Shown here: positions 15,227-51,581 of the stretch, piece by piece
How the letters are laid out: the number at the start of each line of letters is the position of its first letter
How positions within the stretch are numbered: the stretch's first letter is position 1
Source of the DNA: Peristeroidobacter agariperforans
Lineage (GTDB): Bacteria > Pseudomonadota > Gammaproteobacteria > Steroidobacterales > Steroidobacteraceae
Direction of reading: 5' to 3'
DNA length: 64,000 nt
Assembly: GCF_004138335.1 (NCBI RefSeq)
Contig: NZ_RYFW01000008.1
Location: 62,001 to 126,000, forward strand
The notes under the pieces: generated by a model
Databases searched by the model: none
Told to the model about the DNA's origin: nothing
The model's input: the letters and a program-made list of their open reading frames with translations, nothing else
Translations under genes and position numbers: made by a program

Positions 15227-15326
15227 GCGAATTCTGTGGCGTGAATTGAGTGCCTCATTACTGTACCGGATGCAGTCCGTCGAGTAGTGTTTCGACGCGA
15301 CGAAATGCGGTCTCGATCGGCGTAGT

Positions 15327-15650
15327 GTCCAAGAATTCAATCGGGTTGAGTTTCGGCGCTTTTCCGGCGAAACTATACGGACCGAACCTCGATCAGCACC
15401 CCGCAGCCTCTATAGAACAAGCCCTCAAACCCGCCGCGCTTCCAGGCTCTTTGGGCATGTTTCTATAAAATTCCCGATCCTAACCTCACGATTTCCCTGA
15501 TCGTTTAGTATGACTCTCAATCAGTTGGTGATAGGTTCGAGTCCTATACGGCCCATCACTTTCCTGCTTTGAATTCTGCCAGTTACTGCTAGATTCGAGG
15601 CGACTGCGAAATTCCCGCCTCTATAAAACTCCCTATGCTTCGCCTGCCTC
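15327..15650 (+). repeat. Dispersed repeat, copy C, with tRNA-Lys 3' half
   Basis: Third copy of the repeat at 5327. It shares the left block TCCAAGAATTCAATCG, the hairpin block (one arm mutated, GTTTCGGCG against CGGCGAAAC), CCTCAAACCCGCCGC, CTCACGATTTCCCTGATCG, the tRNA half, GAATTCTG and the right block GAGGCGACTGCGAAATTCCCGCCTC. About 55 bp present in copies A and B between the hairpin and the ACCGAACCTC block are missing. It fills the gap upstream of the RIO kinase gene and may supply part of its leader. Confidence 0.75.
15511..15558 (+). other. tRNA-Lys-like 3' half remnant, copy C
   Basis: The anticodon arm has decayed (TGA-CTCTCAA-TCA, anticodon now CTC), the T arm ATAGG-TTCGAGT-CCTAT is intact, and the terminal CCA has become TCA. 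No 5' half is present. It is the most diverged of the three remnants. Confidence 0.7.
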
Positions 15651-16526: not shown

Positions 16527-17165
16527 TCACGTTCCCACGAGCCTTTCCCACTTTGCAACTGACGCCTCGATCCAAGACTGTCGCGGCTTGCCGGTCGATA
16601 TTTCGGCTCGCATCGATGCTTCTGCCGCAAGGCGCGCTGCAACGAGATTCGTGACCTCATCGAGCCGAGAAGCATCGAAACATACGAGGCCATCCTCGTC
16701 CGCAACGACAATATCGCCGGTGCAAATGACCTGGCCGCCAATGGCCACCGGGCTTCCTATGCGACCCGGCCCCTCCTTGGAAGGACCACGGTGGCTGGTT
16801 CCGCGGGCAAAGCAGGCAAAAGGTTCGGGCCCGCGGAAGGCAGCGACATCTCTGACGGCTCCGTCGATGACAAATCCCGACATGCCGCGCTGTATGGCGT
16901 AACTTCTCGACAAGTCACCCACCAATGCACGTTCGAGGCAGTGCCCTCCGGCGACGATCAGGACGTCGCCCGCTTGCGCACGCCCAAGCGCCACGTGGAT
17001 GGCGAGATTGTCGCCGGCGCGCGTCTCGACAGTGAACGCCCGGGCAACGAGACAGGCGTGCCCGCAGTCATAGCGGTTCAGACCAGAGACGCCTCCCATT
17101 CGACCCAGCGCGTCTCCCACGACGGAAGCACCAGCTTGCCTCAAGACTTCCATAGCCACGCTCAC
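16527..17165 (-). CDS. RraA/HMG-aldolase-like family protein
   Basis: A 212-residue protein of the RraA-like (formerly demethylmenaquinone methyltransferase-like) fold, with the family signature GFVIDGAVRDV near residue 110 and the downstream GGQVICTGDIVVADEDG segment. Members include 4-hydroxy-4-methyl-2-oxoglutarate aldolases and oxaloacetate decarboxylases, with a G-x2-RD metal/substrate site as here, and also the RNase E inhibitor RraA. I place the start at a GTG (17163-17165) overlapping the stop of the serine hydrolase (GTGA), which indicates translational coupling; an ATG 12 bases on is the alternative. It is the last gene of the leftward operon from 23131. A catabolic aldolase acting on a 2-oxo acid fits the context, but this is inference. 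Confidence 0.82.
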   Translation of the reverse strand: MSVAMEVLRQAGASVVGDALGRMGGVSGLNRYDCGHACLVARAFTVETRAGDNLAIHVALGRAQAGDVLIVAGGHCLERALVGDLSRSYAIQRGMSGFVIDGAVRDVAAFRGPEPFACFARGTSHRGPSKEGPGRIGSPVAIGGQVICTGDIVVADEDGLVCFDASRLDEVTNLVAARLAAEASMRAEISTGKPRQSWIEASVAKWERLVGT

Positions 17166-19108
17166 CCGAGTCTCAGCCCCAGCAGATTCCAATAGTGCAG
17201 CAAGACGACGAACAGAACTGCGCAGGCACAGTGGACCGATGGCCAGGCGAGCCCACGCACCGAACGCCGCTTGGTAGCCATCACAACGAGGATCAGCAAC
17301 AGCGCCAGAGTGAGCGCCGCCACGGCGATGCCTATCGCAACTCCGACGAATAGTCGGGTAGGAACGCCTCGCGCCATGATTGGCGCGAGACCTCCCGCCA
17401 TCACCGAGCCGAGCAGCAGCGTCGTCATGACGATCAGCACACCGAGCAGTGCGAGAAGCGTCTTCAGCCGTGCGTCCGCGCTCGAGCCGATATTTTTCTT
17501 GCGAAACGCGTCGCGAACTGCAGCAGCCGCACTGATCAATATCAACAACAACCCGACAGCATGCCAGCGCGGATCCGCGAACCACTCGATGCGCCGCATT
17601 GGCACCAGCGACGATTTCAAGCTAAAGCCGTCGATACGTCCCTGCGCACGCTGAAATACAACCCGCTCGCCAAGCGAGTTCTGAAATACATCGGGCGCGA
17701 CGGGCATCCACTGTTCACGCGCGAGCAGTAACGTGCCGTTCGCCATCGGCTTGACCGTCACCGGCAGCGACCCCAGCAATTTTTCGAATGTCGTGAAGGA
17801 ACGTCGTTCGCTTCGATAAGCACCGGCGTACTGCGCCAGCTGCGGCCAGTCGCTATCGTTCGGCGCAACACGTGGCCGCGTAGCCGGCAAGTACCGGTCG
17901 ATAAATGCGCGCACGAACTCGCGCCGTGCATATCCGCCCTCTTGGCTGTTGTAGACGACGAACAATCCCAAGCCCGCATCGGGCACCAGCATCAGTTCGC
18001 TTTGCGTGTAATTCGTCGAGCCATCGTGACGGAGAATGCGACGGCCATTGCGGCGCCCATCCATCAAGCCCAAAGCCATTCCGTCCAGAGCGTCCGATAC
18101 TTGCGCGCTATGCTGCTGCATGACTTGAACGGTGCGTTCTTCGAGAATGCGCGCATCATCCAAAACGCCGCCCTGAAGGTGTGCGAGCATAAGTTTTCCG
18201 ATGTCGTCGGCGGTCGCAATCATGCCGCCGGCGGGTCCGCTCGGCGCCATATCTTCCACAGCTCCGGTCATCCGGCCGTTCCTATAAACGTAACCTCGAG
18301 CTCTATTGGAAAGCGCTCCACTGCCTGCGTCAGCGAACACGCTATCTCGCATGCGCAGGGGACTGAGAATGTTGTCAGCCGCGTACTGCGCGAAACTACG
18401 ATTCGAAATGCACTCCACCACATGCGCCGCCAGCAGTGCGCCCCAGTTGGAATACGGCCTCGCGGCGTGGGCGAGATCCTGTGGAGGCGGGAGCACCCGA
18501 GCTGGCATGTGACTCGCGAGAAACGCCCCCAGCGACGAATATTTGCTCGCGACCTGCGGAGCGAACGGAGCTCCAACCTCTTCGAACCCCGCCGTATGCG
18601 TGAGCAGATGGCGCATCGTCACCGGCGCGGTAGACGTGTCAGGTATCTTGAACCGCAGCAAATAGCGGTTCACATCGGCATCCAGATCGAGCCTGCCCTG
18701 CTCCACGAGCTGCATGACAGCCGTCCAGATGATCACTTTCGAGATCGAACCGACCGTGAACCGCGTCTTCAGAGGATCGACGCTCGTCCGCTGCTCCAGA
18801 TCGGCGTATCCGTAACCTTTTCCGAGCAGCACTGCGCCATCCTTGACCACCACGACGGCGGCGCCGGCGAGCTTATGAGCCGAGAACTGCGCCGCCATTA
18901 CGCCGTCGAAGAATATTTCCAGTTCGCGCGGCTCCAGAGCCCGTTCAGGCAACGCGACCGGTTCGGATCCTTCGGCCGCGCGTTGCTGAAGCTCCGGCAC
19001 AGAGACCGAGGCGAGATCGACCATTTCGGCGCGCACACCGGATGCAGGAACCGTGAGCAACGCGGCTGCAAGCGCCGCCACCCGTAAACAAACGTCCCAT
19101 GGATACAT
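17162..19108 (-). CDS. Serine hydrolase, beta-lactamase/MlrB-like, with membrane tail
   Basis: A 648-residue exported enzyme: signal peptide at 1-28, a class C beta-lactamase-type domain at about 55-400 and a hydrophobic C-terminus with about four membrane segments (about 535-645). The active-site SISK (Ser121, Lys124) and YSN (near residue 217) motifs are both present, plus LLTHTAGF, typical of DD-peptidase/esterase/peptidase members. It should sit in the inner membrane with the catalytic domain in the periplasm. The group includes D-stereospecific peptidases, esterases and MlrB of the microcystin pathway. It lies third in the leftward operon, 35 bp after the esterase. Hydrolase class is certain, substrate not. 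Confidence 0.88.
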   Translation of the reverse strand: MYPWDVCLRVAALAAALLTVPASGVRAEMVDLASVSVPELQQRAAEGSEPVALPERALEPRELEIFFDGVMAAQFSAHKLAGAAVVVVKDGAVLLGKGYGYADLEQRTSVDPLKTRFTVGSISKVIIWTAVMQLVEQGRLDLDADVNRYLLRFKIPDTSTAPVTMRHLLTHTAGFEEVGAPFAPQVASKYSSLGAFLASHMPARVLPPPQDLAHAARPYSNWGALLAAHVVECISNRSFAQYAADNILSPLRMRDSVFADAGSGALSNRARGYVYRNGRMTGAVEDMAPSGPAGGMIATADDIGKLMLAHLQGGVLDDARILEERTVQVMQQHSAQVSDALDGMALGLMDGRRNGRRILRHDGSTNYTQSELMLVPDAGLGLFVVYNSQEGGYARREFVRAFIDRYLPATRPRVAPNDSDWPQLAQYAGAYRSERRSFTTFEKLLGSLPVTVKPMANGTLLLAREQWMPVAPDVFQNSLGERVVFQRAQGRIDGFSLKSSLVPMRRIEWFADPRWHAVGLLLILISAAAAVRDAFRKKNIGSSADARLKTLLALLGVLIVMTTLLLGSVMAGGLAPIMARGVPTRLFVGVAIGIAVAALTLALLLILVVMATKRRSVRGLAWPSVHCACAVLFVVLLHYWNLLGLRLG

Positions 19109-19143
19109 GCATTCTTTCCGCTGGCGCTTCGATGGAGCGTCGC

Positions 19144-20139
19144 TCAGCCTTTCGGCCGCGAGCCGAGCACGATCGGCAGCATGCGATTGATGAGCACCGG
19201 CACCACCGAGATGTGATTCTCTCCTTGGATCTCCATGAACCGGGTTCGCAAACCCGACTTCTCCAGCGGTTGCAGCTTTTGATACAGCTCGCGTGCGCCG
19301 CTGACGATGCGAGCGCGTTGCAGCTGAGGCGCCAGTTTCTCGGCCACGGCCGGATTGAGCGACGGCGGCATCTTTTCGTCGTACTCGGCGACGTACAGCA
19401 GCAAGTGGGCATCGACCTGGCGCTTGTCCTGTGCCGCGATGAAACGTTCGGCTGAGTCGAGAACGTATCCGCCGTTGAAGCCCAGGCTCGGGCTGCCGCA
19501 TACATAATCGCGGAAGGCTTGCGGCTGCGTGAACAGCACGTGCAGTGCGAAGGAACAGCCCAGCGAATGGCCGAACAGCGTGCGCCGCTCGTCATCGATC
19601 TTGACCCGGCGTTTGATCCAGGGATCGAGCTCCTCGCGCAGGAATCCAAGGAATTGCATCGCCCCACCCATCTTCGGTGGCTCCACGCCCGGCGGCATTT
19701 CCTCGCGCAGCGGAACATCGGGCACGAAGTCGTAGAAGCGACGATGCGCGTTGAACGGCGTATCGCCGGGATAGGCGACGCCCACGATCACCGCCTGGTT
19801 GATGCCGGTGAACTGCGGCTGCCGGCCCTGCAAGCGAATCGCGTTCGCGAGCGGTTCAAACCAGGCGTTGCCGTCGAGGACATAAACAACGGGCCAACCA
19901 GACGCCGGCGCCTGCCCGACCGGCAGATAAACGAATATCCGATAGTCCTGGCCCGCCTTGGAGCGCATCGCGTGCTCCTCGGTGTTGGGCACAGGCACCG
20001 GCCGCGCGACCTCGGCCTCATTCGCCAGTGAGGTTCGAGACCACACCGAGGCAGCGATCCCAAGCAGCAGCGCAAGCGCAAGGATCAGGAAAGGGACCTG
20101 GGCTCGCGCCCCGCCGAAGCTCGCTATCGTCGTCTGCAT
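19144..20139 (-). CDS. IroE-like alpha/beta-hydrolase esterase
   Basis: A 331-residue esterase-D-family hydrolase (PF00756 type) with an N-terminal hydrophobic signal anchor (about residues 12-32). VYVLDGNAWF, APASGWPV, the nucleophile elbow GHSLG and the GSPSLG segment resemble the siderophore esterases IroE and Fes, where the order APASGxP, LDGNA, GHSxG and SPSL is the same. A C-terminal GENHIS histidine completes the triad. It should act in the periplasm. I use the ATG at 20139 because GGAG lies seven bases upstream; an ATG at 20151 is also possible. It follows TonB receptor 1 by 91 bp. The siderophore-esterase resemblance is from memory of IroE and is the main clue to the substrate of this operon. 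Confidence 0.85.
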   Translation of the reverse strand: MQTTIASFGGARAQVPFLILALALLLGIAASVWSRTSLANEAEVARPVPVPNTEEHAMRSKAGQDYRIFVYLPVGQAPASGWPVVYVLDGNAWFEPLANAIRLQGRQPQFTGINQAVIVGVAYPGDTPFNAHRRFYDFVPDVPLREEMPPGVEPPKMGGAMQFLGFLREELDPWIKRRVKIDDERRTLFGHSLGCSFALHVLFTQPQAFRDYVCGSPSLGFNGGYVLDSAERFIAAQDKRQVDAHLLLYVAEYDEKMPPSLNPAVAEKLAPQLQRARIVSGARELYQKLQPLEKSGLRTRFMEIQGENHISVVPVLINRMLPIVLGSRPKG

Positions 20140-20230
20140 TGATTGCTCCATCGATGATTCAAAAAGCGGCGCGTCGGTCCCACCACCGGCGCGCCAGTCG
20201 GCGATCCTTACGATCGCCCCTCTCGCAGTC

Positions 20231-23131
20231 TCAAAGACTGATGCGCACTCCGCCATAGAAGTAGCGCCCGATCGTGTCGTATAGCCCCGGGTTGGTGGCG
20301 AGCGCGGAGATGGCGAACTCATAGGGCACGATCGCGGGATCGTTATCGAACACGTTGTTCACACCGGCGAAGAGCTCGAGCGAGCCTGCACCGAGTTGCA
20401 GCGGCACGCGCGCCGACAAATCCAGATACCATTCGGCGGCAATCGAGTTGTCCTCGATGTCCTCCGGTCCATAGGTATTGTCGTACTTGCCCGAACCGAT
20501 GTAGCGCACCTGCCCCGACACACCGACATGATCGGTCGCATAAGAAACATTGGCGTTCCAGCGCAACTTCGGCAGCCCCGAATTGTCACGGCGCAATTCG
20601 CCGGCTCGGTCGATCCTTTCCAGCGCACGCGTATCGCTCTGTTCGATCAGATAGCCGCCGAGCACGCTGACGGTAATGTTTGCATCGCCGCTCTCGAATA
20701 ACGCAGGCGCGCTGAAGCCGTAGCGCGCCTGCCAATCGACACCCCGATTGCGAAACTCTGCGACGTTCAGACCGGAGCTGGTGATGCTCGCGAGCTGACC
20801 CGATGCGTCTCGCTGCACGCCAGCGCAATAGCTGTTTGGATAACTGCCGCCGTAACAGCCGTCCAGGATCGTAGGCACCGGAACCCCCAGCAGAATCGCA
20901 TCGGCGATCCGGATGTCGTACCAATCGAGCGAAAGGTTGAGGCCGGGAACGGCCGGCGGCGCTACGATCAAGCCTGCGGTCCGGGTCCGCGCCGTCTCTT
21001 CATTGAGATTCGGATTGCCGCCGGTGAGCACGCGAATGAGCCCATTCGAGGCCGCGAAATTGGCAGGCAAGCCAGCGGCGGCGCAGGACTGCGCGTAGGC
21101 CGGATTGGCCGCTTGGCTGGCCGCATCGCAGGGATCGACCGGAGTGAAGAACGACACGCCCTCGGGCGCGAACAATTCCGCGATATTGGGTGCGCGAATA
21201 TCTTGCGAGAGCGAACCTCGAAAAGTAACGGAGTGCGCCGTATCCCAAACGAAACCCAGCTTCCATGTCTCGACGCTGCCGATCGTGTCGTAGTCGGTGA
21301 GTCGCGCAGCGGCGCTCAGTTCGAGGCTGCGGGCGAAGCTCTGCTGCGTGAGAACGGGCAGCAGTATTTCGGCAAAGGTCTCCTTCACCGAGAACTCGCC
21401 CGACAGCGCCTGACCGGTGCCCAGCAAGAACGCCCCGGCAGCCGTCACGTCGTCGCCGGCGCCGGTGTATTGCTCCTTCCGGTACTCCACGCCGGCGGCG
21501 ATCGACAGCGGCCCCGCCCACAGCTCCCAGGGTTGACCCCGAATTTCAGCCGACCCTACGGTCTGGCTCTGCTCCTGCGTGAAGAACGAAGTTCCAGAAA
21601 CATAGTCGATCGCGGCGGCGCTCGGCGCACCGAAGCCGAATAGATTGATCGGTTGACATCCTTGCGCAGCCGCCGCCGTGAGCGGATTCAGCGTCGCACG
21701 ACAGACGATCTGTCCATTGGCATCGCGGATGGCATCGGCGGCAAAGGCAAATCGTGCGGGCATGAAATTGTTGCTCAGACGCTCGGTCGAATCCGCCTCG
21801 CCATATTGCACATAGGTTTCCCAAGACCAGGCTGCGCCGAACTCGCCCGCCAGTCCGAGCACCGCGCGCCGCATCCGTTGCTCACGGTTGGTGCGGATGA
21901 ACCCCATGTCCGTGTTCAGTCGTCCCAGCGCGAATGCTGGAATCTGATTGTCCTGCAGCAGTGTTCGCAACTCATCGGGAAGAAACGCGTTGTCGGCGCG
22001 CACCGGCAAATTACCCAGGACGAAAGATTGCACCACGTCGGAGTGCGCGTCTGTCAGCGCATATCCGCCTTCGAAGAAGACCCGCACGCGCTCGGTGAGA
22101 TCCAGATCGGCGGACATGAAAGCGTTTTTGCGCTCGTACGGTTGCGACAGCGCCGCGTACTGGCCGAAGTTGGCGCCGTCGCCGCCGATCATGTAAGGCG
22201 GAGAAACGATCGAACCTCGCTCGAACGGGGCCAAGCCGCCGCCTGGCGTGAATTGCAGATTAGCGACCGGACCGGGCCCGAGGATCAGCCCGCCCTCGGT
22301 AGCGATCGTCAGATTGGCATCCGGGCGGATGAGTCGCGCCGGAATGCCATCAGTCGGGCCGGTGTCGGCCGGATTGCGAATGACGCCCCAGCGGCGTGCG
22401 CCCCAGTCGCGATCCTTCTGATCGGCGATACCGGCGCTCTTCTGGTATTCGGCGGCTAGCAGCACGTGGCCGCGCCCCGCGAAAAAGTCATCGCCCGCGG
22501 CCAAAGCAAAACGAGTGTCGCCGGCATCGCCCTGTTCGGCAGCTCCATACTGCGCAGTCGCCCGCACGCCCTGCAAATCTTTGGCGTAGATCACATTCAC
22601 CACACCCGCGACGGCATCGGAGCCCCAGGCTGCGGAGGCGCCGCCAGTGACTGTCTCGATGCGCTCCAGTGCCACACTCGGCAACACGCTCACATCCACG
22701 GACCCGCCGACAGTCGTCGGTGCGTGCCGCCGCCCATTCACCAGCACGAGTGTGCGCTTAGGCCCGAGCGCGCGTAGATCGAGAAACGCCGAGCCCGCAC
22801 CCCCTGAAGAATCATTGGCTGCGGGACTGACGCCGGCCAGAAACGCCGGCGACTCGTTGACGAAGCTCGCCACGTCGGTGGCGCCGCTGATCAGGAAGTC
22901 CTCCGCGGTGAGCGACATTACCGGCGTAGGCATCACGGCGTTCTCACGACGTATGCGAGAAGCCGTCACCACCACCTCCGCCACTTCCTGCAGTTCCTGA
23001 TGGACATCCGCCATCGGCGATTCCGCAGCGTGCAGGACCGCCGCGGGCCAGCCTAGCACCGCGGCAGCACACGCTGTCGCAAGCGGGGCTCCCCCCGAGT
23101 TGAGTCGACCATGGCCACGTCGTGTACGCAT
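20231..23131 (-). CDS. TonB-dependent receptor 1
   Basis: A 966-residue outer-membrane receptor: signal peptide to about residue 36 (ending LHAAES), a TonB box EVVVTASR near 50, a plug domain with LVLVNGRR and VTGGASAAWGSDAVAGVVN, then a long beta barrel with IRAPNIAELF and the C-terminal strand ending YGGVRISL. The final residue is Leu rather than the usual Phe. The start at 23131 has GGGAGAGG upstream. It leads the leftward operon (receptor, esterase, serine hydrolase, RraA-like) and is divergent from the peptidase/transport operon at 23312. It is a clear paralogue of the receptor at 36950 (shared DRDWG, ATEGGLI, GPG and FxPGG segments). Import of a peptide or siderophore-like compound is inferred from neighbours. 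Confidence 0.93.
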   Translation of the reverse strand: MRTRRGHGRLNSGGAPLATACAAAVLGWPAAVLHAAESPMADVHQELQEVAEVVVTASRIRRENAVMPTPVMSLTAEDFLISGATDVASFVNESPAFLAGVSPAANDSSGGAGSAFLDLRALGPKRTLVLVNGRRHAPTTVGGSVDVSVLPSVALERIETVTGGASAAWGSDAVAGVVNVIYAKDLQGVRATAQYGAAEQGDAGDTRFALAAGDDFFAGRGHVLLAAEYQKSAGIADQKDRDWGARRWGVIRNPADTGPTDGIPARLIRPDANLTIATEGGLILGPGPVANLQFTPGGGLAPFERGSIVSPPYMIGGDGANFGQYAALSQPYERKNAFMSADLDLTERVRVFFEGGYALTDAHSDVVQSFVLGNLPVRADNAFLPDELRTLLQDNQIPAFALGRLNTDMGFIRTNREQRMRRAVLGLAGEFGAAWSWETYVQYGEADSTERLSNNFMPARFAFAADAIRDANGQIVCRATLNPLTAAAAQGCQPINLFGFGAPSAAAIDYVSGTSFFTQEQSQTVGSAEIRGQPWELWAGPLSIAAGVEYRKEQYTGAGDDVTAAGAFLLGTGQALSGEFSVKETFAEILLPVLTQQSFARSLELSAAARLTDYDTIGSVETWKLGFVWDTAHSVTFRGSLSQDIRAPNIAELFAPEGVSFFTPVDPCDAASQAANPAYAQSCAAAGLPANFAASNGLIRVLTGGNPNLNEETARTRTAGLIVAPPAVPGLNLSLDWYDIRIADAILLGVPVPTILDGCYGGSYPNSYCAGVQRDASGQLASITSSGLNVAEFRNRGVDWQARYGFSAPALFESGDANITVSVLGGYLIEQSDTRALERIDRAGELRRDNSGLPKLRWNANVSYATDHVGVSGQVRYIGSGKYDNTYGPEDIEDNSIAAEWYLDLSARVPLQLGAGSLELFAGVNNVFDNDPAIVPYEFAISALATNPGLYDTIGRYFYGGVRISL

Positions 23132-23311
23132 GAAGCCTCTCCCCTGTTTTTTGTTCGATTGACGCGCGTCGCGTGCAGCGCCGCGCTTTCGAGATTGGAG
23201 CACGCGATTTTCTCAGTTGCAAATATTTTTCTTTTTTTGAAATTTCATGTTGCCAATTCTGCTAATACCGCGCGATAGTAGCAACCGCACGATTCATGGG
23301 GAGCGGGCCAG
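23132..23311. promoter_or_regulatory. Bidirectional promoter region of the eleven-gene cluster
   Basis: These 180 bp separate the start codons of TonB receptor 1 (leftward) and the DUF885 gene (rightward) and must hold both promoters. The stretch 23208-23270 is strikingly AT-rich for this genome (AAATATTTTTC, TTTTTTTGAAATTTCATG) and includes the small palindrome GAAATTTC. No regulator gene is adjacent, so control is likely from the XRE-cupin or Lrp genes further right; that is inference. Confidence 0.55.
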
Positions 23312-25015
23312 ATGACTGAGCCGACGAGGGCTGGGACCACAGCGGCGATCGCGCTTGCGCTCGCATCCATGCTGACCTCACAGGCGGCAAACGGCGACCA
23401 AGCGCAGCGTACGATTGCGGAAATTGCTGCTGCCCTGCGCGCCAGCCGTCACTCCGAGCCCGGAGCTCTCCCGGACAACACCGCGGCGGCACTCCGCTCG
23501 CGTCATGAAACCGAAGACCGGCTCCACGAGCAGTTGCTCACACTCAAAGAAGCGCAGCTGCAGCCAGCAGCCGCAATCGCTTTCGAGGCCCTGCGAGCAA
23601 CCGTCGAAGCCGAGCGCGAGGTACGCGTGTGCCGACGCGAGCTGTGGAACGTCGATCACATCAGTGGGTGGCATATTCAGCTCGGTGCGTGGGCCGAGCG
23701 TCAGCCAGTCGATTCGCCAGCCGCGCGCTCGCGGGCGCTCGCTCGATGGCAACAAGTCCAAGGCTTCATCCATCGCGAAACGGCACTGCTGCGAGCTGGA
23801 CTCGATCTCGGATACTCGGCGCCCCAAGCCGTGGTACGACGCGTCGTACGGCAACTCGATGATCAGCTGGAATCCGCGGCGGCTTCATCGCTCGCCTCGC
23901 CCGCGAAGCGCACCGACGACGCCAATTTCGCTCGCGACCAGCAGCTGATCTTGCAGAAGGACGTGCTGCCCGAACTGCGGCGCTATCGCGATTTCTTGCG
24001 CGACGAGTATGTGCGCAAGGCTCGTAGTTCGATCGGCGTCTCATCGTTGCCGCACGGCCGGGACTGCTATCGCGCCCTGCTCAGAAGAGAAACGAGCCTG
24101 GGCAGCTCGCCCGAAGAGATCTTCGAGCGCGGCCAGAAGATGATCGAGGAGAACCGAGCCGCGATCGTCGAGCTCGGCGCCTTGCAGTTCGGTACTCGAG
24201 ATGTCACGCAGATCATGGCGCGGCTCCAGGCGGATCCAGCCAATCGGTTCGACTCACCCGAAGCGGTGCTGCAGTTCACGCGCGAAGTGACGGAACGCGC
24301 TCGCGAGGCATCGAAAGGCTTATTCATCGCACTTCCTCGAGCGCCACTGGAAGTGGTCGCCTTCCCAACGTATCAGCGCGACAGCGGCATGAACCCGTAT
24401 TACTCGCCCTCGCGCGACGCTGAGCCCGCTCGCTATCTGGTCAATCTGCAAACCTGGCGCGACAACGCCCGGAGCCAGGTCGAAGTCACGAGTGTGCATG
24501 AGGCGTGGCCCGGCCATCACGTACAGATCTCGCTCGCTCAGTCGCTGCCGTATGGCAATGAGTTGCTCGCCGTCGCGCGCTTTCCTGCGTACATCGAAGG
24601 CTGGGCCCGTTATGCAGAGCGGCTCGCTGATGAATTCGGGATGTACACCACTGCGCACGCGCGCATTCTCTGGCGAGCGAAGCCGGGCTTCGGCATGGTC
24701 GTCGACCCAGGATTGCATGCTTTCGACTGGCCGCGCGAGCGCGCCCTCGAATTTCTCATGTCGAGCGGACTGTTCCCGAGCGAGCAGAGCGTGAACGACA
24801 TGATCGATCGCATCGCCGTCATGCCGGCGCAGCTCACTGCATACGACACGGGCGGTTCTGAAATCCTGAGTCTGCGCGAGCTGGCACGCGAGCGGCTAGG
24901 CAAGAAGTTCGATTTGCGCCAGTTCCATGCCCAGCTTTTGGGAATGGGATACGCACCGCTCGGTACGGTACGCAAGCTCACCCTGCAATGGATCGAGCGC
25001 TCGGAGCAGCCATGA
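23312..25015 (+). CDS. DUF885 family exported metallohydrolase
   Basis: A 567-residue DUF885 protein with an N-terminal signal (AIALALASMLTSQAANG). The zinc motif HEAWPGHH (starting near His396; HExxxGHH is the family hallmark) and the downstream EGWARYAE glutamate identify it as a metallopeptidase-like hydrolase. Members are mostly periplasmic and probably cleave peptides or peptide-like amides. It opens the rightward operon and its stop overlaps the start of the POT transporter (ATGA). The GMNPYYSPSRD segment is also typical of the family. The enzyme likely makes short peptides that the next gene product imports. Confidence 0.9.
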   Translation: MTEPTRAGTTAAIALALASMLTSQAANGDQAQRTIAEIAAALRASRHSEPGALPDNTAAALRSRHETEDRLHEQLLTLKEAQLQPAAAIAFEALRATVEAEREVRVCRRELWNVDHISGWHIQLGAWAERQPVDSPAARSRALARWQQVQGFIHRETALLRAGLDLGYSAPQAVVRRVVRQLDDQLESAAASSLASPAKRTDDANFARDQQLILQKDVLPELRRYRDFLRDEYVRKARSSIGVSSLPHGRDCYRALLRRETSLGSSPEEIFERGQKMIEENRAAIVELGALQFGTRDVTQIMARLQADPANRFDSPEAVLQFTREVTERAREASKGLFIALPRAPLEVVAFPTYQRDSGMNPYYSPSRDAEPARYLVNLQTWRDNARSQVEVTSVHEAWPGHHVQISLAQSLPYGNELLAVARFPAYIEGWARYAERLADEFGMYTTAHARILWRAKPGFGMVVDPGLHAFDWPRERALEFLMSSGLFPSEQSVNDMIDRIAVMPAQLTAYDTGGSEILSLRELARERLGKKFDLRQFHAQLLGMGYAPLGTVRKLTLQWIERSEQP

Positions 25016-26346
25016 CGCAGTTCGCCTCGCAAAGCGAGCCTGTTCCAGCAGACGCCCAGCCAAGCCTTGACGCGAGGACTCACCTCGGCTCGGCACAGTG
25101 GTTCGGACAACCGCGCGGGCTGACGATCCTGTTCCTCACAGAAATGTGGGAGAAGTTCTCCTACTTCGGCATGCGCGCGATGCTGGTCTACTACATGACC
25201 CAGCAGCTCATGTTCTCTCAGCCCCGCGCGTCGCTGATCTACGGCCTGTACACGGGCGCAGTGATGTTGACGCCGTTGGCAGGGGCGGCGCTGTCCGATC
25301 GCTGGCTGGGTCGCCGCCGCGCAGTCGTCCTGGGATGTCTGATCATGACCCTGGGCCACTTCATGATGGCATTCGAGCCGCTCTTCTTCGTGGCGCTCGC
25401 CATCATTGCCGCCGGCAGCGGATTGTTTCTACCGAACCTGCCGAGTCAGATCGATGGGCTCTACGCTGCTACCGATCCGCGACGCAATTCGGCATTCAGT
25501 GTCTACTACGTGGGAATCAACACCGGCGGATTACTTGCGCCACTGGTCTGTGGAACCATTGGCGAGCTGTTCGGCTGGCACTGGGGATTCGCAACGGCAG
25601 GCTTGGGAATGGTCGTCGGCCTGCTCATATATATCGGCGGCGCCGGTTACCTCCCGCCAGAAGATCCGCGTTCAGCAACGCGACTCGCGCGGGCGCAATG
25701 GACCAGCGAGGAAGACCGCAAACGCGCGTACGCCCTGCTCCTCGCACTCGCGCTCATCGTGATGGTATTCCGAGCCAGCTACGAACAGATCGGCAACACC
25801 ATCGCCACGTGGATCGACGCCGGCGTGGATCGCGGCGTCGGCGACTTCACCATTCCGATGACCTGGTTTCAATCGCTGAATCCTTTGCTGGTGTTTACGT
25901 TGACACCGCTGCTCGTGGCTCGATGGACCGCGCAGGCAAAACGCGGCAAGGAAGCGCCTGCGCTGGCCAAGATGGCGAGCGGAGCCGTTCTGGTTGCGAG
26001 CGCATGGTTCCTGCTGTCGTGGGTCGCCCTGACGCTCGATGGCGCACCTCGAGTGAGCTGGCTGTGGGTGGCGCTATTCTTTGCGCTGATGACGGCCGGC
26101 GAGCTGTATGTGTTTCCTATCGGACTTGCGCTGTTCGCTCGCATTACGCCCGCGGCATTCACCGCGACGGCCATCGCGGTGTGGTATCTCGCCGGCTTTG
26201 CCGGCAACCTGCTCGGCGGCGGCGCTGGCACGCTGTGGGTACACCTTTCACATGCGCAGTTCTTTGCGCTCATGGGCGTGATTGCCGCTTTCGCCGCTGC
26301 ACTCTTCGTGGGTTGCAAACGATTCATGCGCCTGCCTGCGCGTTGA
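25012..26346 (+). CDS. POT-family proton-coupled oligopeptide transporter
   Basis: A 444-residue inner-membrane transporter of the POT/PTR2 family. The first helix carries FLTEMWEKFSYFGMRA, corresponding to the ExxERFxYY signature with the last Tyr replaced by Phe and Arg by Lys, and YYVGINTGGLLAPL matches the second POT motif (FYxxINxG). It takes up di- and tripeptides with protons. The start at 25012 overlaps the DUF885 stop by four bases. Length and family match MlrD of microcystin degraders, and an MlrC-type peptidase follows directly. Peptide uptake between a periplasmic and a cytoplasmic peptidase makes functional sense. Confidence 0.92.
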   Translation: MTQFASQSEPVPADAQPSLDARTHLGSAQWFGQPRGLTILFLTEMWEKFSYFGMRAMLVYYMTQQLMFSQPRASLIYGLYTGAVMLTPLAGAALSDRWLGRRRAVVLGCLIMTLGHFMMAFEPLFFVALAIIAAGSGLFLPNLPSQIDGLYAATDPRRNSAFSVYYVGINTGGLLAPLVCGTIGELFGWHWGFATAGLGMVVGLLIYIGGAGYLPPEDPRSATRLARAQWTSEEDRKRAYALLLALALIVMVFRASYEQIGNTIATWIDAGVDRGVGDFTIPMTWFQSLNPLLVFTLTPLLVARWTAQAKRGKEAPALAKMASGAVLVASAWFLLSWVALTLDGAPRVSWLWVALFFALMTAGELYVFPIGLALFARITPAAFTATAIAVWYLAGFAGNLLGGGAGTLWVHLSHAQFFALMGVIAAFAAALFVGCKRFMRLPAR

Positions 26347-26355
26347 GGTCCATTC

Positions 26356-27861
26356 GTGCGCATCCTGACCGCCGCCATTGTCACCGAGACCAACACCTTC
26401 TCGCCGCAGCCCACGGACTGGGAGCAGTTCCAGGCATGCGGGCTGTGCTGGCGAGAAGGCGACTACATCGAAGAGACCGCGTTCACTGCCCCTGTCCTGC
26501 TGATCAAGCGGCTGGGCGAACGTGATGGACACGAGGTGGTGCTCGGACCTTCGGCCTACGCCGATCCGGCCGGGCCGACCCGACGCGGAGTTTATGAAAG
26601 CCTGCGGGAGGAGATTTTGCGACGGATCGAAACCGATGGACCGTTCGATGCCGTTCTGCTCACGTTACACGGCGCCATGGTCGCAGAGGGTTATGAGGAC
26701 TGCGAAGGCGACCTGCTGCACAAGGTACGTGAGCGCGTCGGTGCGACCGCGTTCGTAGGCGCCATGCTCGATCCGCATTGCCATCTGACCGCGGCCATGG
26801 TCAGCGCTGCGGACGCCATCACGATCATGAAGGAATATCCACATACGGACGGCGAACAGCGCTTGCGAGAGTTGTATCGCATTTGCCTGCGCGTGCTGGC
26901 CGGCGAGATCCGGCCCGCCGCCGCACTGATCGATTGCGGGTTGGTGGGAGTGTGGCCAACCTCGCACGAGCCCATTCGATCGCTGGTCGACCGGATCAGT
27001 CTCCGCGAGACGCACGAGCCGATCGTTTCCATCGGCTTCGCCCATGGTTTTCCGTGGGGCGACGTTCCAGAAGCCGGAGCCCGCGTTCTGGTACTCACAA
27101 ACGAAGCGCTCGACGTGGCGGAGTCCACGGCAGTTGCGATCGCCGATGAAATCTGGTCGCTACGCGATTTCGCGCGGATCGAGACGGTCAGCGTCTCTGA
27201 AGCGCTGAGCGAAGTTGCCGTCAGTCGCCAAGGCCCGGTTGTTCTAGCCGACATCGCCGACAATCCGGGCGGCGGCGCGCCGGGCGACTCTACTTTCATC
27301 CTGCGCGAAGCTTTGAACCGCGGGCTGAGAGACATCGCCATCTCACTCGTCCACGATCCACAAAGCGTAGATCAGTGTTTCGACGCTGGGCTCGGTGCTC
27401 CTGCGAATCTGCGGATCGGCGGCAAACACGGCCGCGTCTCTGGTGAACCGCTCGAGGTGCGCGCAACGATTCGCGGGCTGAGCGAACGACATTCTCAGCA
27501 ATCCCCAGCGGAGGGCCCAAGGATTCCGCTGGGCCGCTCTGCATGGGTCGAGATCGATGGCGTGCACGTTATTCTCACGCACTCGCGGTACCAGGCGGTC
27601 AGCCCCGACGTCTTTAGCGGACTCGGACTCGATCCCGCGGCGCTACGTGCTGTGATCGTCAAATCCACAAATCACTTCCGCGCACGATTCTCAGCCATCG
27701 CAGATCGCATCCTGAGTGTGGATACACCGGGCGCGCTGTCGCTCGACTTCGCCAATCTCCCCTACCAGCGTCGAGCGCGGAACGTTTGGCCCCGGTGCGA
27801 CAGCCGGCCCGAGCAGACGGTCGTACTGCGCCAGCTCCAGCCGCGTCGTTTCATCCTGTGA
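26356..27861 (+). CDS. M81-family metallopeptidase (MlrC-type)
   Basis: A 501-residue protein of peptidase family M81, whose founding member MlrC degrades linearised microcystin. The N-terminal signature ILTAAIVTETNTFSP, the segment LLTLHGAMVAEG, the metal-ligand region LDPHCHL and ADNPGGGAPGDST near residue 305 are all present, and the length matches MlrC (about 500). It starts at a GTG 10 bp after the POT gene, with GAGG upstream. It should work in the cytoplasm on imported peptides. M81 proteins are widespread and most have no known substrate, so microcystin itself is not implied. Confidence 0.9.
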   Translation: MRILTAAIVTETNTFSPQPTDWEQFQACGLCWREGDYIEETAFTAPVLLIKRLGERDGHEVVLGPSAYADPAGPTRRGVYESLREEILRRIETDGPFDAVLLTLHGAMVAEGYEDCEGDLLHKVRERVGATAFVGAMLDPHCHLTAAMVSAADAITIMKEYPHTDGEQRLRELYRICLRVLAGEIRPAAALIDCGLVGVWPTSHEPIRSLVDRISLRETHEPIVSIGFAHGFPWGDVPEAGARVLVLTNEALDVAESTAVAIADEIWSLRDFARIETVSVSEALSEVAVSRQGPVVLADIADNPGGGAPGDSTFILREALNRGLRDIAISLVHDPQSVDQCFDAGLGAPANLRIGGKHGRVSGEPLEVRATIRGLSERHSQQSPAEGPRIPLGRSAWVEIDGVHVILTHSRYQAVSPDVFSGLGLDPAALRAVIVKSTNHFRARFSAIADRILSVDTPGALSLDFANLPYQRRARNVWPRCDSRPEQTVVLRQLQPRRFIL

Positions 27862-27875
27862 CATTGGAACATCTC

Positions 27876-28835
27876 ATGCAGTTGCGTGTCATCGACTCGA
27901 TTCTCATTCGCCTGCACCTGGGTTATCCCGCCTGCATAGCACTAGTGCGCGAGGCGATGCAGAGTCTTTCCCGCGGCAAGCCCATCCATGCGCCCAGGCA
28001 GATCCTGCCGTTGCGCACCGGCCAGGCGTTCGGCGTCATGCCCGGAGCGATGGGCCTCGGAGAGGTATTCGGCGCCAAGTTGGTGAGCGTGTTTCCTCCT
28101 GGCGCTGGCGCGCACTCGTCCCATCAAGGCGTAGTTGTGCTGTTCGATCCGGACTCCGGCGCGCCCGTGGCGATCCTGGACGCCGGCGAGATCACTCGAA
28201 TACGGACCGCCGCTGCGAGCGCCGTCGCTACTGCTGCGCTGGCGCGCGCCGAAGCCTCGCAACTCGCAATCCTCGGTTATGGTGAGCAGGCGCGAGCGCA
28301 CATCGCTGCAATCAAAGAAGTGCGCCCGCTTTCGCGCATCCTCGTATGGGGTCGAGATCGCGAACGACGTGAACGCTTCGTCGCCGAGGTCGCCGAGTCG
28401 AGCGGCATCGCGTGCATCGCCGTAGACAGTGCGCAGGCTGCCGCCAGCGAGGCCGACATCATCTGCACGACCACTTCGGCGAGTGAGCCCATTCTCGAGG
28501 GTGCATGGGTACGTCCTGGCACACACGTCAATATCGTTGGTTCCAGTCATGCAGGTCCGGCGGAAATCGATGTGGCTCTGGTGGTCGCGTCGCGCTTCGT
28601 CGCGGATCATCGTGCATCGGTGTTACGACAGGGGGCTGAGTTCCTGCGAGCCAAGGCGGCTGGCCGTGTCGACGACGATCATGTCGTCGCCGAAATCGGC
28701 CAGGTGCTGCTGGATGAGGTGCCGGGTCGCAGTAACGATGAGCAGATCACCGTGTACAAGTCGCTGGGCCACATCGTCCAGGACCTGTGCAGCGCCTGGC
28801 ACGTGTATCAGGCAGTGATGAGGCATGACCGATGA
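27876..28835 (+). CDS. Ornithine cyclodeaminase/mu-crystallin family imine reductase
   Basis: A 319-residue Rossmann protein of the OCD/mu-crystallin family. The conserved REAM helix near residue 23, the NAD(P) motif LGYGEQARAHI near 135 (consensus GxGxQA), and the C-terminal GQVLLDEVPGR and TVYKSLGHIVQDL segments are standard. Family reactions include ornithine cyclodeamination, alanine dehydrogenation and reduction of imines such as iminosuccinate. The start is the ATG at 27876, 14 bp after the M81 gene; its stop overlaps the next gene by four bases. A tightly coupled OCD-family plus threonine-dehydratase-like pair recalls EutC-EutB of hydroxyectoine breakdown and BhcD-BhcB of the beta-hydroxyaspartate cycle. 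Confidence 0.88.
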   Translation: MQLRVIDSILIRLHLGYPACIALVREAMQSLSRGKPIHAPRQILPLRTGQAFGVMPGAMGLGEVFGAKLVSVFPPGAGAHSSHQGVVVLFDPDSGAPVAILDAGEITRIRTAAASAVATAALARAEASQLAILGYGEQARAHIAAIKEVRPLSRILVWGRDRERRERFVAEVAESSGIACIAVDSAQAAASEADIICTTTSASEPILEGAWVRPGTHVNIVGSSHAGPAEIDVALVVASRFVADHRASVLRQGAEFLRAKAAGRVDDDHVVAEIGQVLLDEVPGRSNDEQITVYKSLGHIVQDLCSAWHVYQAVMRHDR

Positions 28836-29803
28836 GCACCACGCAACGACTCCACGAAATCGTCCTGCAAGCGCGGCACGCCGATTTCATCTCCGCATCC
28901 GAGCGCCTGGCGCCGTATGTGATGCCCTCCCCGCTCATAGCGTTCCCTGGCAGACCAGGGCGGACATTACGCTTGAAGGCGGAGAATCTGCAGCCGCTCG
29001 GCTCATTCAAGATCCGTGCGGCGTTCAACGTTCTGCTGCAAGCCGCGAGTCGGCGCAGCCTGTCACGCATTGCAACTGCAAGTGCAGGCAACTTCGCGCA
29101 GGGACTCATGCTCGCCGCACGGCAGCTGGGCGCGCAACTGAGTGTGCACATTCCAGACACGGCCGCCGAAAACAAGCGCGCCGCGCTTCGAAACATGGGC
29201 GCGAATCTGTTTGTTCATTCCTTCACTGACTGGTGGCGGATCCTCATGACACGCGAAACGGGCGCGGCGGAAGAGCTATTCATACATCCGGTATGCGAAC
29301 CCGATGTGATCATCGGCAACGGCTCGATCGGTGTGGAACTGCTCGAGCAATGGCCTGAAGTGGACACCGTCGTCGTCCCCATCGGCGGCGGTGGCCTGGC
29401 CGCGGGAATCGCCCTGGCGCTCCGCTCGGCAGGACGGCGCATTCGCATCGTCGGCTGCGAGATCGAAACGGCCGCACCGCTCAGCGCAGCACGCGCCGCG
29501 GGCCGCCCGGTGCCGGTGAATCGCGCTCCCAGCTTCGTCGACGGTATAGGCTCGAACTGCGTTCTCGATGAAATGTGGCCGCTGTTGCGCGATCTCATCG
29601 ACGATGTCGTTGTCGTGAGCGTGGAACAAGCGCGTGCAGCCGTGCGCACACTGGCACAGACCAATCACCTGGTCGTCGAAGGGGCCGCCGCAGTCGCGTT
29701 CGCAGCTGCCAGCTCGCCCGACTTCGAGGCGCGCAACGTTGCAGCCATTCTTTCCGGCGGCAACATCGATCACCGTGTGCTGTGTGAGATTCTGTCTTCA
29801 TGA
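28832..29803 (+). CDS. Threonine dehydratase-like PLP enzyme
   Basis: A 323-residue fold-type II PLP enzyme. The PLP lysine lies in LGSFKIRAA (about residue 63), followed by the SAGNFAQG asparagine loop and the phosphate-binding glycine loop PIGGGGLAAG. It lacks the C-terminal ACT-like regulatory domain of biosynthetic IlvA, like catabolic dehydratases, beta-hydroxyaspartate dehydratase and EutB. It should eliminate water or ammonia from a beta-hydroxy amino acid to give an enamine/imine, a suitable substrate for the reductase encoded just upstream. It overlaps its neighbours by four bases on both sides. Enzyme family certain, substrate inferred. Confidence 0.88.
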   Translation: MSTTQRLHEIVLQARHADFISASERLAPYVMPSPLIAFPGRPGRTLRLKAENLQPLGSFKIRAAFNVLLQAASRRSLSRIATASAGNFAQGLMLAARQLGAQLSVHIPDTAAENKRAALRNMGANLFVHSFTDWWRILMTRETGAAEELFIHPVCEPDVIIGNGSIGVELLEQWPEVDTVVVPIGGGGLAAGIALALRSAGRRIRIVGCEIETAAPLSAARAAGRPVPVNRAPSFVDGIGSNCVLDEMWPLLRDLIDDVVVVSVEQARAAVRTLAQTNHLVVEGAAAVAFAAASSPDFEARNVAAILSGGNIDHRVLCEILSS

Positions 29804-31026
29804 GTAGCGCCGCCATGCATTGCGCCTCGCCTCCGGATTTCCAGACTCGCTTCCCGCTCGGAGCGAGCATCAGCGTTGCCGAGCTCGAGCGCGATCCCTA
29901 CCCCTTCTTCGCTCGAGTCCGCGAGCGCGAACCGCTGACCTGGGTAGAAGCACTGAAGATGTGGTACGTCACGGGATACGATGACGTCCGACGTGTGCTG
30001 ATGGACGGCGTGAACTTCACGGCGACCGCCGAACGTTCACCTATTCGCGACACCTTTGGCGAACAGATGCTGAGCAGTGAGGGGGAGGCGCACAGGCGAT
30101 ATCGCCGGGTATTCCTGCAGGGATTCAGCGCAGTCAGCGTAACTCGTCTGGAATCTCATATCAGAGCGGCCGCGGCAGGATTGGCCGATGAGTGCAGCGG
30201 CGCGTCTACAATCGAGCTGCGGACGCGTTTCGCGAGCCGCCTGCCGATCCACACCATCCTGTTGGCGTTCGGGATGGAACTGGCGGCCGAGCAGGATCTG
30301 CGCCGCTGGTATGACGACTTCGAACGTGCTCTGGCGAACTTCGAAGGCGATCTGCACACGCGCGAACGCGCTCAAAGTAGCACAAAGCAGTTTCATGAGT
30401 ACCTGCACGCAGGATTACAGGCCGCGCGCCGGAACCCCGACGACTCGCTCCTGTCGAGCCTCGTGCAGGCGCCGGCGGATCGGCGCCTGAGCGACGAGGA
30501 ACTCGTCCGCAACCTCTCCATTGTTTTCTTCGGCGGCATATCCACCGTGGAGGCGCTGATCCTGAACAGTCTATGGGCGCTGTCCGCGCATCCGGAACTG
30601 ATCGAACGCGTGCGCAGTGATGAGGCCCTGCTGGCGAATGCGATCGAGGAAACGATGCGCTGGCTGGGCCCCGTGCAGTCGGCGACTCGATACGTGGTGC
30701 AGGACGTGGAGTTGCGAGGAGTGACGCTGCGCGCAGGCGAAACGGTGAATTGCATGCTCGGCGCGGCCAACCACGATCCTCTCATGTTCCCTCATCCGGA
30801 ACGCTTCGACATCACACGCCCGAACCTGACCGCGCACATGGGCTTCGCGACCGGGCATCACATGTGTCTTGGCTTCCGGCTGGCTAAAGCGCAGGTGAGA
30901 ATTGCGCTGCAAATCCTGCTATCGCGCTTTGCTCCGTTCGAAGTCATCGATCGAGAAGCGAATCCGCCCACCGGCTACGAGTTCAGGCAACCCCGCGCCA
31001 TGTGGATTCGGGGAGCTGTGCGATGA
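29800..31026 (+). CDS. Cytochrome P450
   Basis: A 408-residue soluble bacterial P450. The haem loop FATGHHMCLGFRLA (FxxGxHxCxG) supplies the Cys ligand near residue 349, and EETMRW is the ExxR motif of helix K. The I-helix reads FFGGISTVEAL where most P450s have AG-x-[DE]-TT: the acidic residue is Ile here and the threonine is kept, so proton delivery may differ. It depends on ferredoxin and reductase partners not encoded nearby. It overlaps the genes on both sides by four bases, so it is an integral step of the pathway, probably an oxidation of a side chain or N-alkyl/acyl group. Confidence 0.93.
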   Translation: MSSAAMHCASPPDFQTRFPLGASISVAELERDPYPFFARVREREPLTWVEALKMWYVTGYDDVRRVLMDGVNFTATAERSPIRDTFGEQMLSSEGEAHRRYRRVFLQGFSAVSVTRLESHIRAAAAGLADECSGASTIELRTRFASRLPIHTILLAFGMELAAEQDLRRWYDDFERALANFEGDLHTRERAQSSTKQFHEYLHAGLQAARRNPDDSLLSSLVQAPADRRLSDEELVRNLSIVFFGGISTVEALILNSLWALSAHPELIERVRSDEALLANAIEETMRWLGPVQSATRYVVQDVELRGVTLRAGETVNCMLGAANHDPLMFPHPERFDITRPNLTAHMGFATGHHMCLGFRLAKAQVRIALQILLSRFAPFEVIDREANPPTGYEFRQPRAMWIRGAVR

Positions 31027-31577
31027 GCGCTCGCGACAATGGCATGTCCTCGCGCGCATCCACACTAGCGGGCTATGCCGTTGCATTCTGGTCGCTGCTT
31101 TATCTCTTGCCTCATCTGGTGTGGGCGCTCGGCGTGAGGGCGGGATTCGTAGCTCTGCATCCATCTATCGCGACGCTTCCACAATGGCGGACCATCAATT
31201 GGATTGCGTCCGCTATCCTTGGGATCGCCGCCCTGCTCGGCCTCGCATTACGACGGCGCTCTCCCAACGCAGCGGTACATCGCGCGAAGCTCACCGTCGC
31301 ATGGTTTGGCTCGTGCATAGCGACGGCGCACGGCCTGGTGGGCATCGGCATGCGAATCGCAACGATCTCCGGCTGGCCGCAGCCTGCTGTGCCCGCCTGG
31401 CTCTACTGGGATCTGCTGGTTTTCGAGCCCTGGTTCCTGATCGAAGGCGTGTTGCTCGCACTCGCCGGCGGCTTGTTGCTGCCGGACAGATCACAACGTA
31501 GACGATGGGCCTTGCTGTGCGTGGCGGGCACAGCTATCGCAATCATCTTTGCGCTGATGCGAGTGAAGATCTGGTGA
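31023..31577 (+). CDS. Small integral membrane protein (DUF3995-like)
   Basis: A 184-residue protein with four clear hydrophobic helices (about residues 16-38, 60-80, 93-115 and 128-150) and a possible fifth at the C-terminus. The first helix YAVAFWSLLYLLPHLVWALG resembles DUF3995 proteins, a family of unknown function. It starts at an ATGA overlap with the P450 stop and closes the seven-gene rightward operon. Its last 35 bp overlap the convergent FAD oxidase gene. Function unknown; a membrane accessory or exporter is possible. Confidence 0.75.
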   Translation: MSARDNGMSSRASTLAGYAVAFWSLLYLLPHLVWALGVRAGFVALHPSIATLPQWRTINWIASAILGIAALLGLALRRRSPNAAVHRAKLTVAWFGSCIATAHGLVGIGMRIATISGWPQPAVPAWLYWDLLVFEPWFLIEGVLLALAGGLLLPDRSQRRRWALLCVAGTAIAIIFALMRVKIW

Positions 31578-35166: not shown

Positions 35167-35226
35167 GCTTGCCGCGCCCGCAAGGGGCAATACCCTTCCC
35201 GTAGGGAAGGTTAGCGCCCCCGCCAT

Positions 35227-51564: not shown

Positions 51565-51581
51565 GCGCACCAGCTCGATGA

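Follow-up and report, generated by a model that had tools for sequence, protein, structure and literature searches.

The window analysed here is a stretch of 64,000 nucleotides from contig NZ_RYFW01000008.1 of Peristeroidobacter agariperforans, whose genome measures 7.65 Mb. Positions 16527–42917 of the window hold an island of 19 genes (∼26 kb), which probably encodes a catabolic or scavenging system for peptides with D-residues. The target peptides are perhaps non-ribosomal or otherwise modified, and possibly carry an ester or N-acyl group. Peptides of this kind withstand ordinary proteases and persist in nature; to our knowledge few complete pathways for the breakdown of D-residue peptides have been described, the best known being the mlr pathway for microcystin, which itself includes D-residues. 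Our reading draws on the gene families, the operon-like layout, the catalytic motifs and the linkage, in relatives, of the island modules to one another and to D-amino-acid enzymes. We favour D-residue peptides as the substrate because D-amino-acid enzymes are frequent among those found repeatedly near the island genes. Within the island itself, the best PDB matches of two proteins are a D-serine deaminase (3gwq, 300 bits) and an N-acyl-D-glutamate deacylase (3gip, 187 bits), and a serine hydrolase has D-peptidases among its PDB relatives. If this reading is correct, the island provides a testable parts list for the complete breakdown of a D-residue peptide, joins TonB import and D-amino-acid metabolism in one locus, and shows where the source of the mlr genes might be sought.

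A preliminary description of this DNA had recognised eleven genes at 16527–31577, in two arms that diverge from a common 180-bp region, and had proposed that they scavenge an unusual peptide or a foreign siderophore. The leftward arm consists of genes for a TonB-dependent receptor (TBDR1), an esterase (Est), a serine hydrolase (SerH) and an RraA-like protein; the rightward arm encodes a DUF885 protein, a POT transporter, an M81 peptidase, an OCD-family reductase, a PALP-family enzyme, a cytochrome P450 and a DUF3995 protein. All eleven genes are present and each family is confirmed by Pfam, but associated genes continue beyond 31577 as far as 42917, making the island larger than first described. 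Of the two proposed substrates, the unusual peptide is supported, and more specifically as a peptide with D-residues, whereas the siderophore is not supported. The divergent region is exactly 180 bp (23132..23311) when the receptor gene is taken to start at 23131. The five four-base start/stop overlaps are exact: GTGA at 17162–17165 on the minus strand, where the RraA-like and SerH genes overlap, and ATGA at 25012, 28832, 29800 and 31023. Elsewhere in the right arm, POT and M81 are separated by 9 bases and M81 and OCD by 14. Judged by this layout, each arm appears compact and operon-like, as had been suggested.

Linkage of the island genes in other genomes

Linkage was assessed in loci fetched around homologues of individual island proteins (the anchors), counting homologues of other island proteins at E ≤ 1e-30 and excluding the anchor and both TonB receptors from the partner count. 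Where the anchor score was the sole ground for fetching a locus, 13/20 loci contain another island homologue, compared with 0/20 random stretches, whose positions were fixed beforehand in eleven of these genomes, including that of the island (Fisher p 6e-6). By anchor, partners are present at two of the three P450 loci, three of the four M81 loci, none of the four Est loci and eight of the nine POT loci, the miss being a paralogue in the same genome (41% identity, L140) with no island neighbour at this threshold. As a further control, 25 proteins from outside the island, of which some open reading frames are possibly doubtful, gave 0/1000 pairs at 1e-30 and 5/1000 at 1e-15 in the anchored loci, and 2/500 and 5/500, respectively, in the random loci.

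POT homologues at ≥55% identity occur at nine loci in eight other genomes; eight of these loci (55–62%) were fetched, the ninth (G112) being cut by a contig end. The fetched loci include, at E ≤ 1e-30, SerH in 6/8, the island's probable permease in 5/8 (41–44% identity) and an XRE-cupin gene in 4/8, and every locus has at least one of them. The SerH homologue lies within ∼3 kb of POT, and within the same distance of M81 in 2/4 loci; members of the two arms do therefore occur together in relatives, contrary to the outcome that the preliminary description had named as refuting it. Since SerH and POT, from the cluster as first reported, co-occur in these loci with the permease and regulator 2, from outside it, the right flank is tied to the reported arms. 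Regulator 2 is 51–56% identical to the XRE genes of four POT loci (L129, L130, L131 and L135), and regulator 1 only 38–43%. The same neighbourhoods include D-amino-acid genes: five DUF1611 genes picked by eye (L130–L134) are DgcN-like, scoring 444–459 bits against a cut-off of 480, and three enolase-type genes tested (L128, L133 and L134) are DgcA-like, at 359–383 bits against a cut-off of 400.

Of the loci fetched with other anchors, L101 combines homologues of OCD (46%), POT (33%), PALP (35%), XRE-cupin (39%; 41% to regulator 2) and two amidohydrolases, one gene being matched by both amidohydrolases of the island. It also encodes a DgcA that exceeds its cut-off (407.6 of 400), a TonB receptor, peptidases of families M2 and S9, and a protein of the D-Ser dehydratase fold. 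M81 accompanies OCD and a DadA-like gene (381.6 bits, cut-off 383) in L067, a DAO gene, an XRE-cupin gene and SerH (28%) in L066, and XRE-cupin and SerH (27%) in L108; in L107 it has no island partner. OCD homologues neighbour a DAO homologue 49% identical to the island DAO-family protein (L115), and adjoin a 49% identical D-aminoacylase-like fragment and a D-Ser dehydratase-fold gene (L102). Est relatives are found near DUF885 (1.5e-30), S15, a gamma-glutamyltranspeptidase and an STN-type receptor in L138, and near an M20 gene in L139.

Several points weigh against this reading. When the OCD and PALP loci are added to the linkage count, 20/40 have a partner compared with 0/20 random loci (Fisher p 3e-5), a figure that is inflated because some of these loci were picked after a partner had already been seen. 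The less selected figure for OCD is 8/29 loci (L069–L097, ∼1.5-kb flanks, E ≤ 1e-6), and 10/18 wide OCD loci have no partner at 1e-30. At the control threshold, partners other than TonB receptors are absent from all four Est loci, the DUF885 match in L138 falling just outside it. At 1e-15, 3/20 random loci give a match (DUF885 twice, PALP once). Several anchored loci share one genome, and the loci are not fully independent. OCD–PALP pairs also occur with no D-amino-acid enzyme recognised by eye (L103, L109 and L110). No homologue of the RraA-like or DUF3995 protein (E ≤ 1e-15), or of the D-serine-deaminase-like protein (E ≤ 1e-8), was found in the 40 anchored loci, and because of this the last belongs to the island by position alone. 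Neither DgcN (DUF1611) nor DgcA (enolase-type) was detected by Pfam among the 19 genes, and the PF00144, amidohydrolase and DAO families include many enzymes that are not D-specific. Lastly, the parts of the island are of known families and their combination was not found in any other genome searched.

This last point follows from the distribution of the single genes, determined by querying 150 family genomes, including that of the island, with one protein at a time. The P450 occurs in 3/149 other family genomes (E ≤ 1e-60) and in 0/348 other genomes of a phylum sample, M81 occurs in 5/149 other family genomes (E ≤ 1e-90), and the own genome alone is common to both lists. Within the genus, the 13 other genomes gave no match to either the P450 (E ≤ 1e-50) or M81 (E ≤ 1e-60), and so the cluster in its exact form is not conserved. 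PALP and OCD were found in 16 and 27 other family genomes, respectively (both at 1e-50), Est in 6 (1e-30) and POT in 27 (1e-60). Outside the family, 45% identical relatives of POT occur in 2/320 other genomes of the class (1e-85), where they have no island neighbours. The search for conserved neighbourhoods that the preliminary description had recommended thus shows pairs and modules recurring in relatives, but the complete set only here among the genomes searched.

OCD relatives in other phyla were considered separately. Among 24 such loci, a PALP gene is immediately adjacent in five and within 1 kb in one (L024), SerH-like genes are present in L021 and L023, and L024 has a weak XRE-cupin match; these 24 loci show no further island homologue. 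The five adjacent pairs (L009, L013, L015, L017 and L023) are in Chloroflexi, Gemmatimonadetes and Caldithrix records, and the pair is widespread. In two Sphingomonadaceae loci (L014 and L016), several genes are, by eye, near-identically placed around the OCD homologue, as would be expected if OCD also belonged to another, separate conserved cluster.

Gene products and a predicted pathway

The substrates, cell locations, order of steps and regulation given below are predictions from the families and motifs of the products. TBDR1 (20231..23131, minus strand; PF00593 barrel 101 bits, PF07715 plug 53 bits) and a second TonB-dependent receptor (36950..39736, minus; PF00593 and PF07715) would bring the peptide through the outer membrane. 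The closest PDB relative of the TBDR1 plug is BtuB, and the receptor scores under every NCBIfam receptor cut-off listed. In the periplasm, an ester could then be opened by Est (19144..20139, minus; PF00756 71 bits), which has one N-terminal hydrophobic segment by hydropathy and the catalytic motifs GHSLG and GENH. Its PDB matches are the Bes esterase 2qm0 (BES, 187 bits), fungal IroE-like esterases (94 bits), an enterobactin esterase (83 bits) and IroE 2gzr (80 bits); with BES at the top and IroE lower, the earlier label ‘IroE-like’ is correct at the level of family.

Periplasmic cutting and de-acylation would fall to SerH, the DUF885 protein and two D-aminoacylase-like hydrolases. SerH (17162..19108, minus; PF00144 199 bits) has four C-terminal transmembrane helices predicted by hydropathy, and is probably a membrane-anchored enzyme of the penicillin-binding/D-peptidase fold. 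Its motifs S121xxK124, Y219SN221 and H361xG363 are invariant across six homologues. IS11 and a penicillin-binding-protein-related beta-lactamase lead its PDB relatives, with alkaline D-peptidase third and DD-carboxypeptidase, D-amino acid amidase, ClbP and esterases further down. The DUF885 protein (23312..25015, plus; PF05960 337 bits) is a putative zinc peptidase with the motif HEAWPGHH, the peptidase role being surmised from the family, and matches the PDB lipoprotein 3o0y with 127 bits. The first of the two amidohydrolases (32826..34415, plus) is N-acyl-D-amino-acid deacylase-like, with D-aminoacylase 1m7j (176 bits) behind the 3gip match given above; the second (35297..36934, minus; PF07969) is of the same NCBIfam subfamily, the scores against NF006560 (cut-off 340) being 201 bits for the first and 226 bits for the second.

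Di- and tripeptides would next be moved inward by POT (25012..26346, plus), a POT/PTR2 proton-coupled peptide transporter (PF00854 156 bits) with the motif EMWEKFSYFG, which exceeds the cut-off of the oligopeptide:H+ symporter model TIGR00924 (273 bits, cut-off 130). In the cytoplasm, the leftover peptide would be cleaved by M81 (26356..27861, plus), a metallopeptidase of the MlrC fold family (PF07364, DUF1485, 260 bits; PF07171, MlrC_C, 181 bits). Among plasmid records its closest relatives are M81 proteins of Paracoccus plasmids, at up to 46% identity.

Three enzymes may then form imines or keto acids from the released D- or hydroxy-amino acids. These are a flavin adenine dinucleotide (FAD) oxidoreductase of the DAO family (31543..32709, minus; PF01266 187 bits), which misses all NCBIfam cut-offs and whose gene overlaps that of the DUF3995 protein tail to tail; the D-serine-deaminase-like enzyme (39917..41206, plus; PF14031 60.6 bits and PF01168), a pyridoxal phosphate (PLP) protein whose match to 3gwq covers residues 32–429 of 429; and PALP (28832..29803, plus; PF00291 209 bits), a PLP enzyme of the serine/threonine dehydratase and serine racemase family, nearest in the PDB to catabolic threonine dehydratase and serine racemase. 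The imines could be reduced to L-amino acids by OCD (27876..28835, plus; PF02423 221 bits), an imine reductase of the OCD/mu-crystallin family for which pyrroline-2-carboxylate reductase ranks best in the PDB, followed by thiomorpholine-carboxylate dehydrogenase.

Side-chain or oxo-acid remnants might be processed by the P450 and the RraA-like protein. The latter (16527..17165, minus; PF03737 119 bits) belongs to a family of aldolases and oxo-acid decarboxylases and scores 210 bits against PRK06201 (cut-off 231). The P450 (29800..31026, plus; PF00067 116 bits) has the unusual I-helix motif FGGISTVEA. An identical I-helix stretch, FGGISTVEALILN, is found in three relatives within the family (L061:10040-11239, L062:10461-11681 and L063:9646-10869), and in all four proteins Ser occupies the position before the conserved Thr, where an acidic residue is usual. 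This is possibly an unusual oxygen-activation site.

The remaining products are a small DUF3995 membrane protein (31023..31577, plus; PF13160 36.5 bits, cut-off 34.3), a multi-pass membrane protein and probable permease (41218..42336, plus) with eight hydrophobic segments and no Pfam or NCBIfam match, and two XRE-type proteins, which would be the regulators. Regulator 1 (34393..35226, minus; start at 35166 or 35226) has HTH_3 and Cupin_2 domains. Regulator 2 (42333..42917, plus) is above the cut-off for HTH_19, HTH_31 and HTH_3 and has no Cupin match, its cupin half being assigned by similarity only. The divergent region contains a sigma-70-like match at 23250–23279, the sole one found in 16.4–35.4 kb; it proves nothing, because shuffles of these 19 kb average 3.6 matches. 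No island protein scanned reached an NCBIfam equivalog cut-off.

Described systems and rival explanations

No described system with these genes was known to the preliminary description, which thereby overlooked the mlr pathway for microcystin, where the same trio of families appears (PMC12474180). There, MlrB is a periplasmic serine hydrolase with a Ser-x-x-Lys pair, MlrD a PTR2 transporter that takes a tetrapeptide inward and MlrC a cytoplasmic M81 enzyme. The island matches mlrABCD of Sphingopyxis and relatives at the family level with SerH and its SxxK motif, the PTR2 transporter and M81. It differs in adding an esterase, DUF885, OCD, PALP, the P450, D-amino-acid enzymes and two TonB receptors, and Pfam scans of the 19 genes gave no MlrA (a CPBP/Abi-type membrane protease), the rest of the genome not having been searched for it. 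The island thus resembles mlr in roles but is not a member; by function, the mlr pathway is the nearest described system. Searches of the open-licence PMC literature on the gene set or on D-residue peptide clusters returned nothing relevant, and for DUF885 no relevant title was present among the matches listed.

One explanation goes further than role resemblance: the island would be an mlr-like pathway dedicated to a single non-ribosomal (depsi)peptide, cyclic or N-acylated, whose ring is opened by Est instead of MlrA. SerH, POT and M81 do correspond to MlrB, MlrD and MlrC by family and predicted location, a lactone could be opened by Est, and a lipid or aromatic part would be open to the P450. 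M81 is 36% identical to microcystinase C (7ylq), and the MlrC zinc ligands, given in PMC9982164 as E39, D167, H169 and H191 (H196 in one passage), are all retained, as E11, D139, H141 and H163 in our alignment. In contrast, E70, which the same text calls very critical, is not kept, nor are Q468, S485 and R492, although E70 lies close to an alignment gap. We rejected M81 as a true MlrC on its score of 315 bits against the NF041767 cut-off of 999, which was passed in 0/369 phylum genomes and 0/14 control genomes; 7ylq itself gave 280 matches in plasmid records, all <60% identity, with 41.9% the best among the matches listed. Moreover, the SerH, POT and M81 trio was found in this window only, and ring opening by Est is a prediction. 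Overall, such a dedicated pathway is unlikely.

Equally, it could be argued that the island scavenges peptides in general, with no particular stereochemistry, and is built from abundant peptidase and TonB families. In two of the three P450 loci (L062 and L063) the P450 does have an M19 dipeptidase and DUF885 nearby, to which L063 adds a TonB receptor and an M3 peptidase, while DUF885, M19, M3 and the TonB receptor are all absent from the third (L061); the OCD–PALP pairs lacking a recognised D-amino-acid enzyme, described above, fit as well. The absence of any non-TonB island homologue from the random loci, and the fact that several island members are closest to D-specific enzymes, argue against it, and this explanation too we regard as improbable.

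A bolder version combines a start-to-finish, mlr-like pathway for a cyclic or N-acylated D-residue peptide, having an IroE/BesA-type esterase in place of MlrA as ring opener and PALP, DAO and OCD as an imine hub leading from D- and hydroxy-residues to L-amino acids, with the proposal that the SerH–POT–XRE clusters of this family, with M81 variants, are the kind of reservoir from which mlrB, mlrD and mlrC were assembled. According to PMC6563193, it had not been known until that study where mlrB and mlrC came from; its conclusion is that the four mlr genes have one shared history and that a genomic island brought them into sphingomonads. A shared history disfavours late assembly and leaves the source open; we have therefore slightly lowered the probability of this combined version, which is distinctly unlikely.

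The island could alternatively recycle muropeptides, with POT, the DD-peptidase-like SerH and the D-amino-acid enzymes consuming fragments of peptidoglycan. The chief D-residues of the cell wall are D-Ala and D-Glu, the nearest PDB relative of one deacylase is the N-acyl-D-glutamate enzyme, and DgcN/DgcA-like genes stand beside POT and SerH in relatives. Against this, amino-sugar and anhydro-muropeptide families, cell-wall amidases and LD-carboxypeptidases are all missing from the Pfam matches of the 19 genes, and the TonB receptors, esterase and P450 are left unexplained, such that muropeptide recycling appears quite unlikely.

Least probable of all is that the TonB receptor takes up a foreign ferric siderophore, that Est hydrolyses its lactone to free the iron and that the remaining genes recycle the peptide: Est has the alpha/beta hydrolase family and the Ser and His motifs of IroE, BesA and Fes, its N-terminal hydrophobic segment is compatible with a periplasmic enzyme, and PALP and OCD could in principle process beta-hydroxyaspartate, a residue of siderophores, but the 19 genes include no iron ABC transporter or ferric reductase by Pfam, TBDR1 scores 25.5 bits against TIGR01783 (cut-off 223.5; a weak point, as the receptor misses all those listed), the divergent region and the whole window give 0 matches with ≤3 mismatches to a 19-base Fur consensus, and peptide hydrolases surround Est relatives in 2/4 fetched loci (L138 and L139). 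Siderophore scavenging was rejected as the principal function chiefly on the Fur-box and Est-neighbourhood results.

For the reading that we prefer, the catabolism of D-residue peptides, three further systems are informative. DauB, of the D-to-L arginine inversion by DauA and DauB, belongs to the OCD family. DauA is an FAD dehydrogenase that produces an imine (PMC5619798). The island has a comparable pair, in that its OCD-family reductase could reduce an imine yielded by an FAD enzyme; neither gene reaches an equivalog cut-off, however, and the island OCD is adjoined by a PLP dehydratase gene. PALP-fold dehydratases are also combined with OCD reductases in EutB/EutC (hydroxyectoine) and BhcB/BhcD (beta-hydroxyaspartate). 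Identity with these was rejected on scores of 199 of 413 (EutB), 162 of 472 (EutC), 156 of 550 (BhcB) and 160 of 500 (BhcD). Lastly, PMC12363236 presents dgcN as a key gene in the irreversible racemization of acidic D-amino acids. In relatives, DgcN- and DgcA-like genes have around them members of the island's POT, SerH, permease and XRE families, whereas the island itself has D-aminoacylase-, DAO- and D-Ser-deaminase-like enzymes instead.

Surroundings of the island

The G+C content of the island, 62.9%, differs little from that of the DNA leftward (59.9%) and rightward up to 51 kb (61.4%). The 64 kb contain no Rfam match at gathering scores, and no tRNA was found. A glutathione-S-transferase-like gene, recognised by eye, is present twice (3672–4304 and 50497–51132), with 81% DNA identity, in the same orientation and ∼47 kb apart; the copies flank the island, one on each side, and the left one has the shorter open frame. 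Three copies of a repeat of ∼250–350 bp (5321–5676, 6762–7029 and 15321–15631), mostly 81–84% identical, are also present, the last just left of the island. On the far right, HTH_Tnp_1 and rve transposase-type genes (51169–52390 and 52–58 kb) stand beside a low-GC stretch (52–54%), and a perfect 112-bp inverted repeat is formed by 52325–52436 and 56146–56257.

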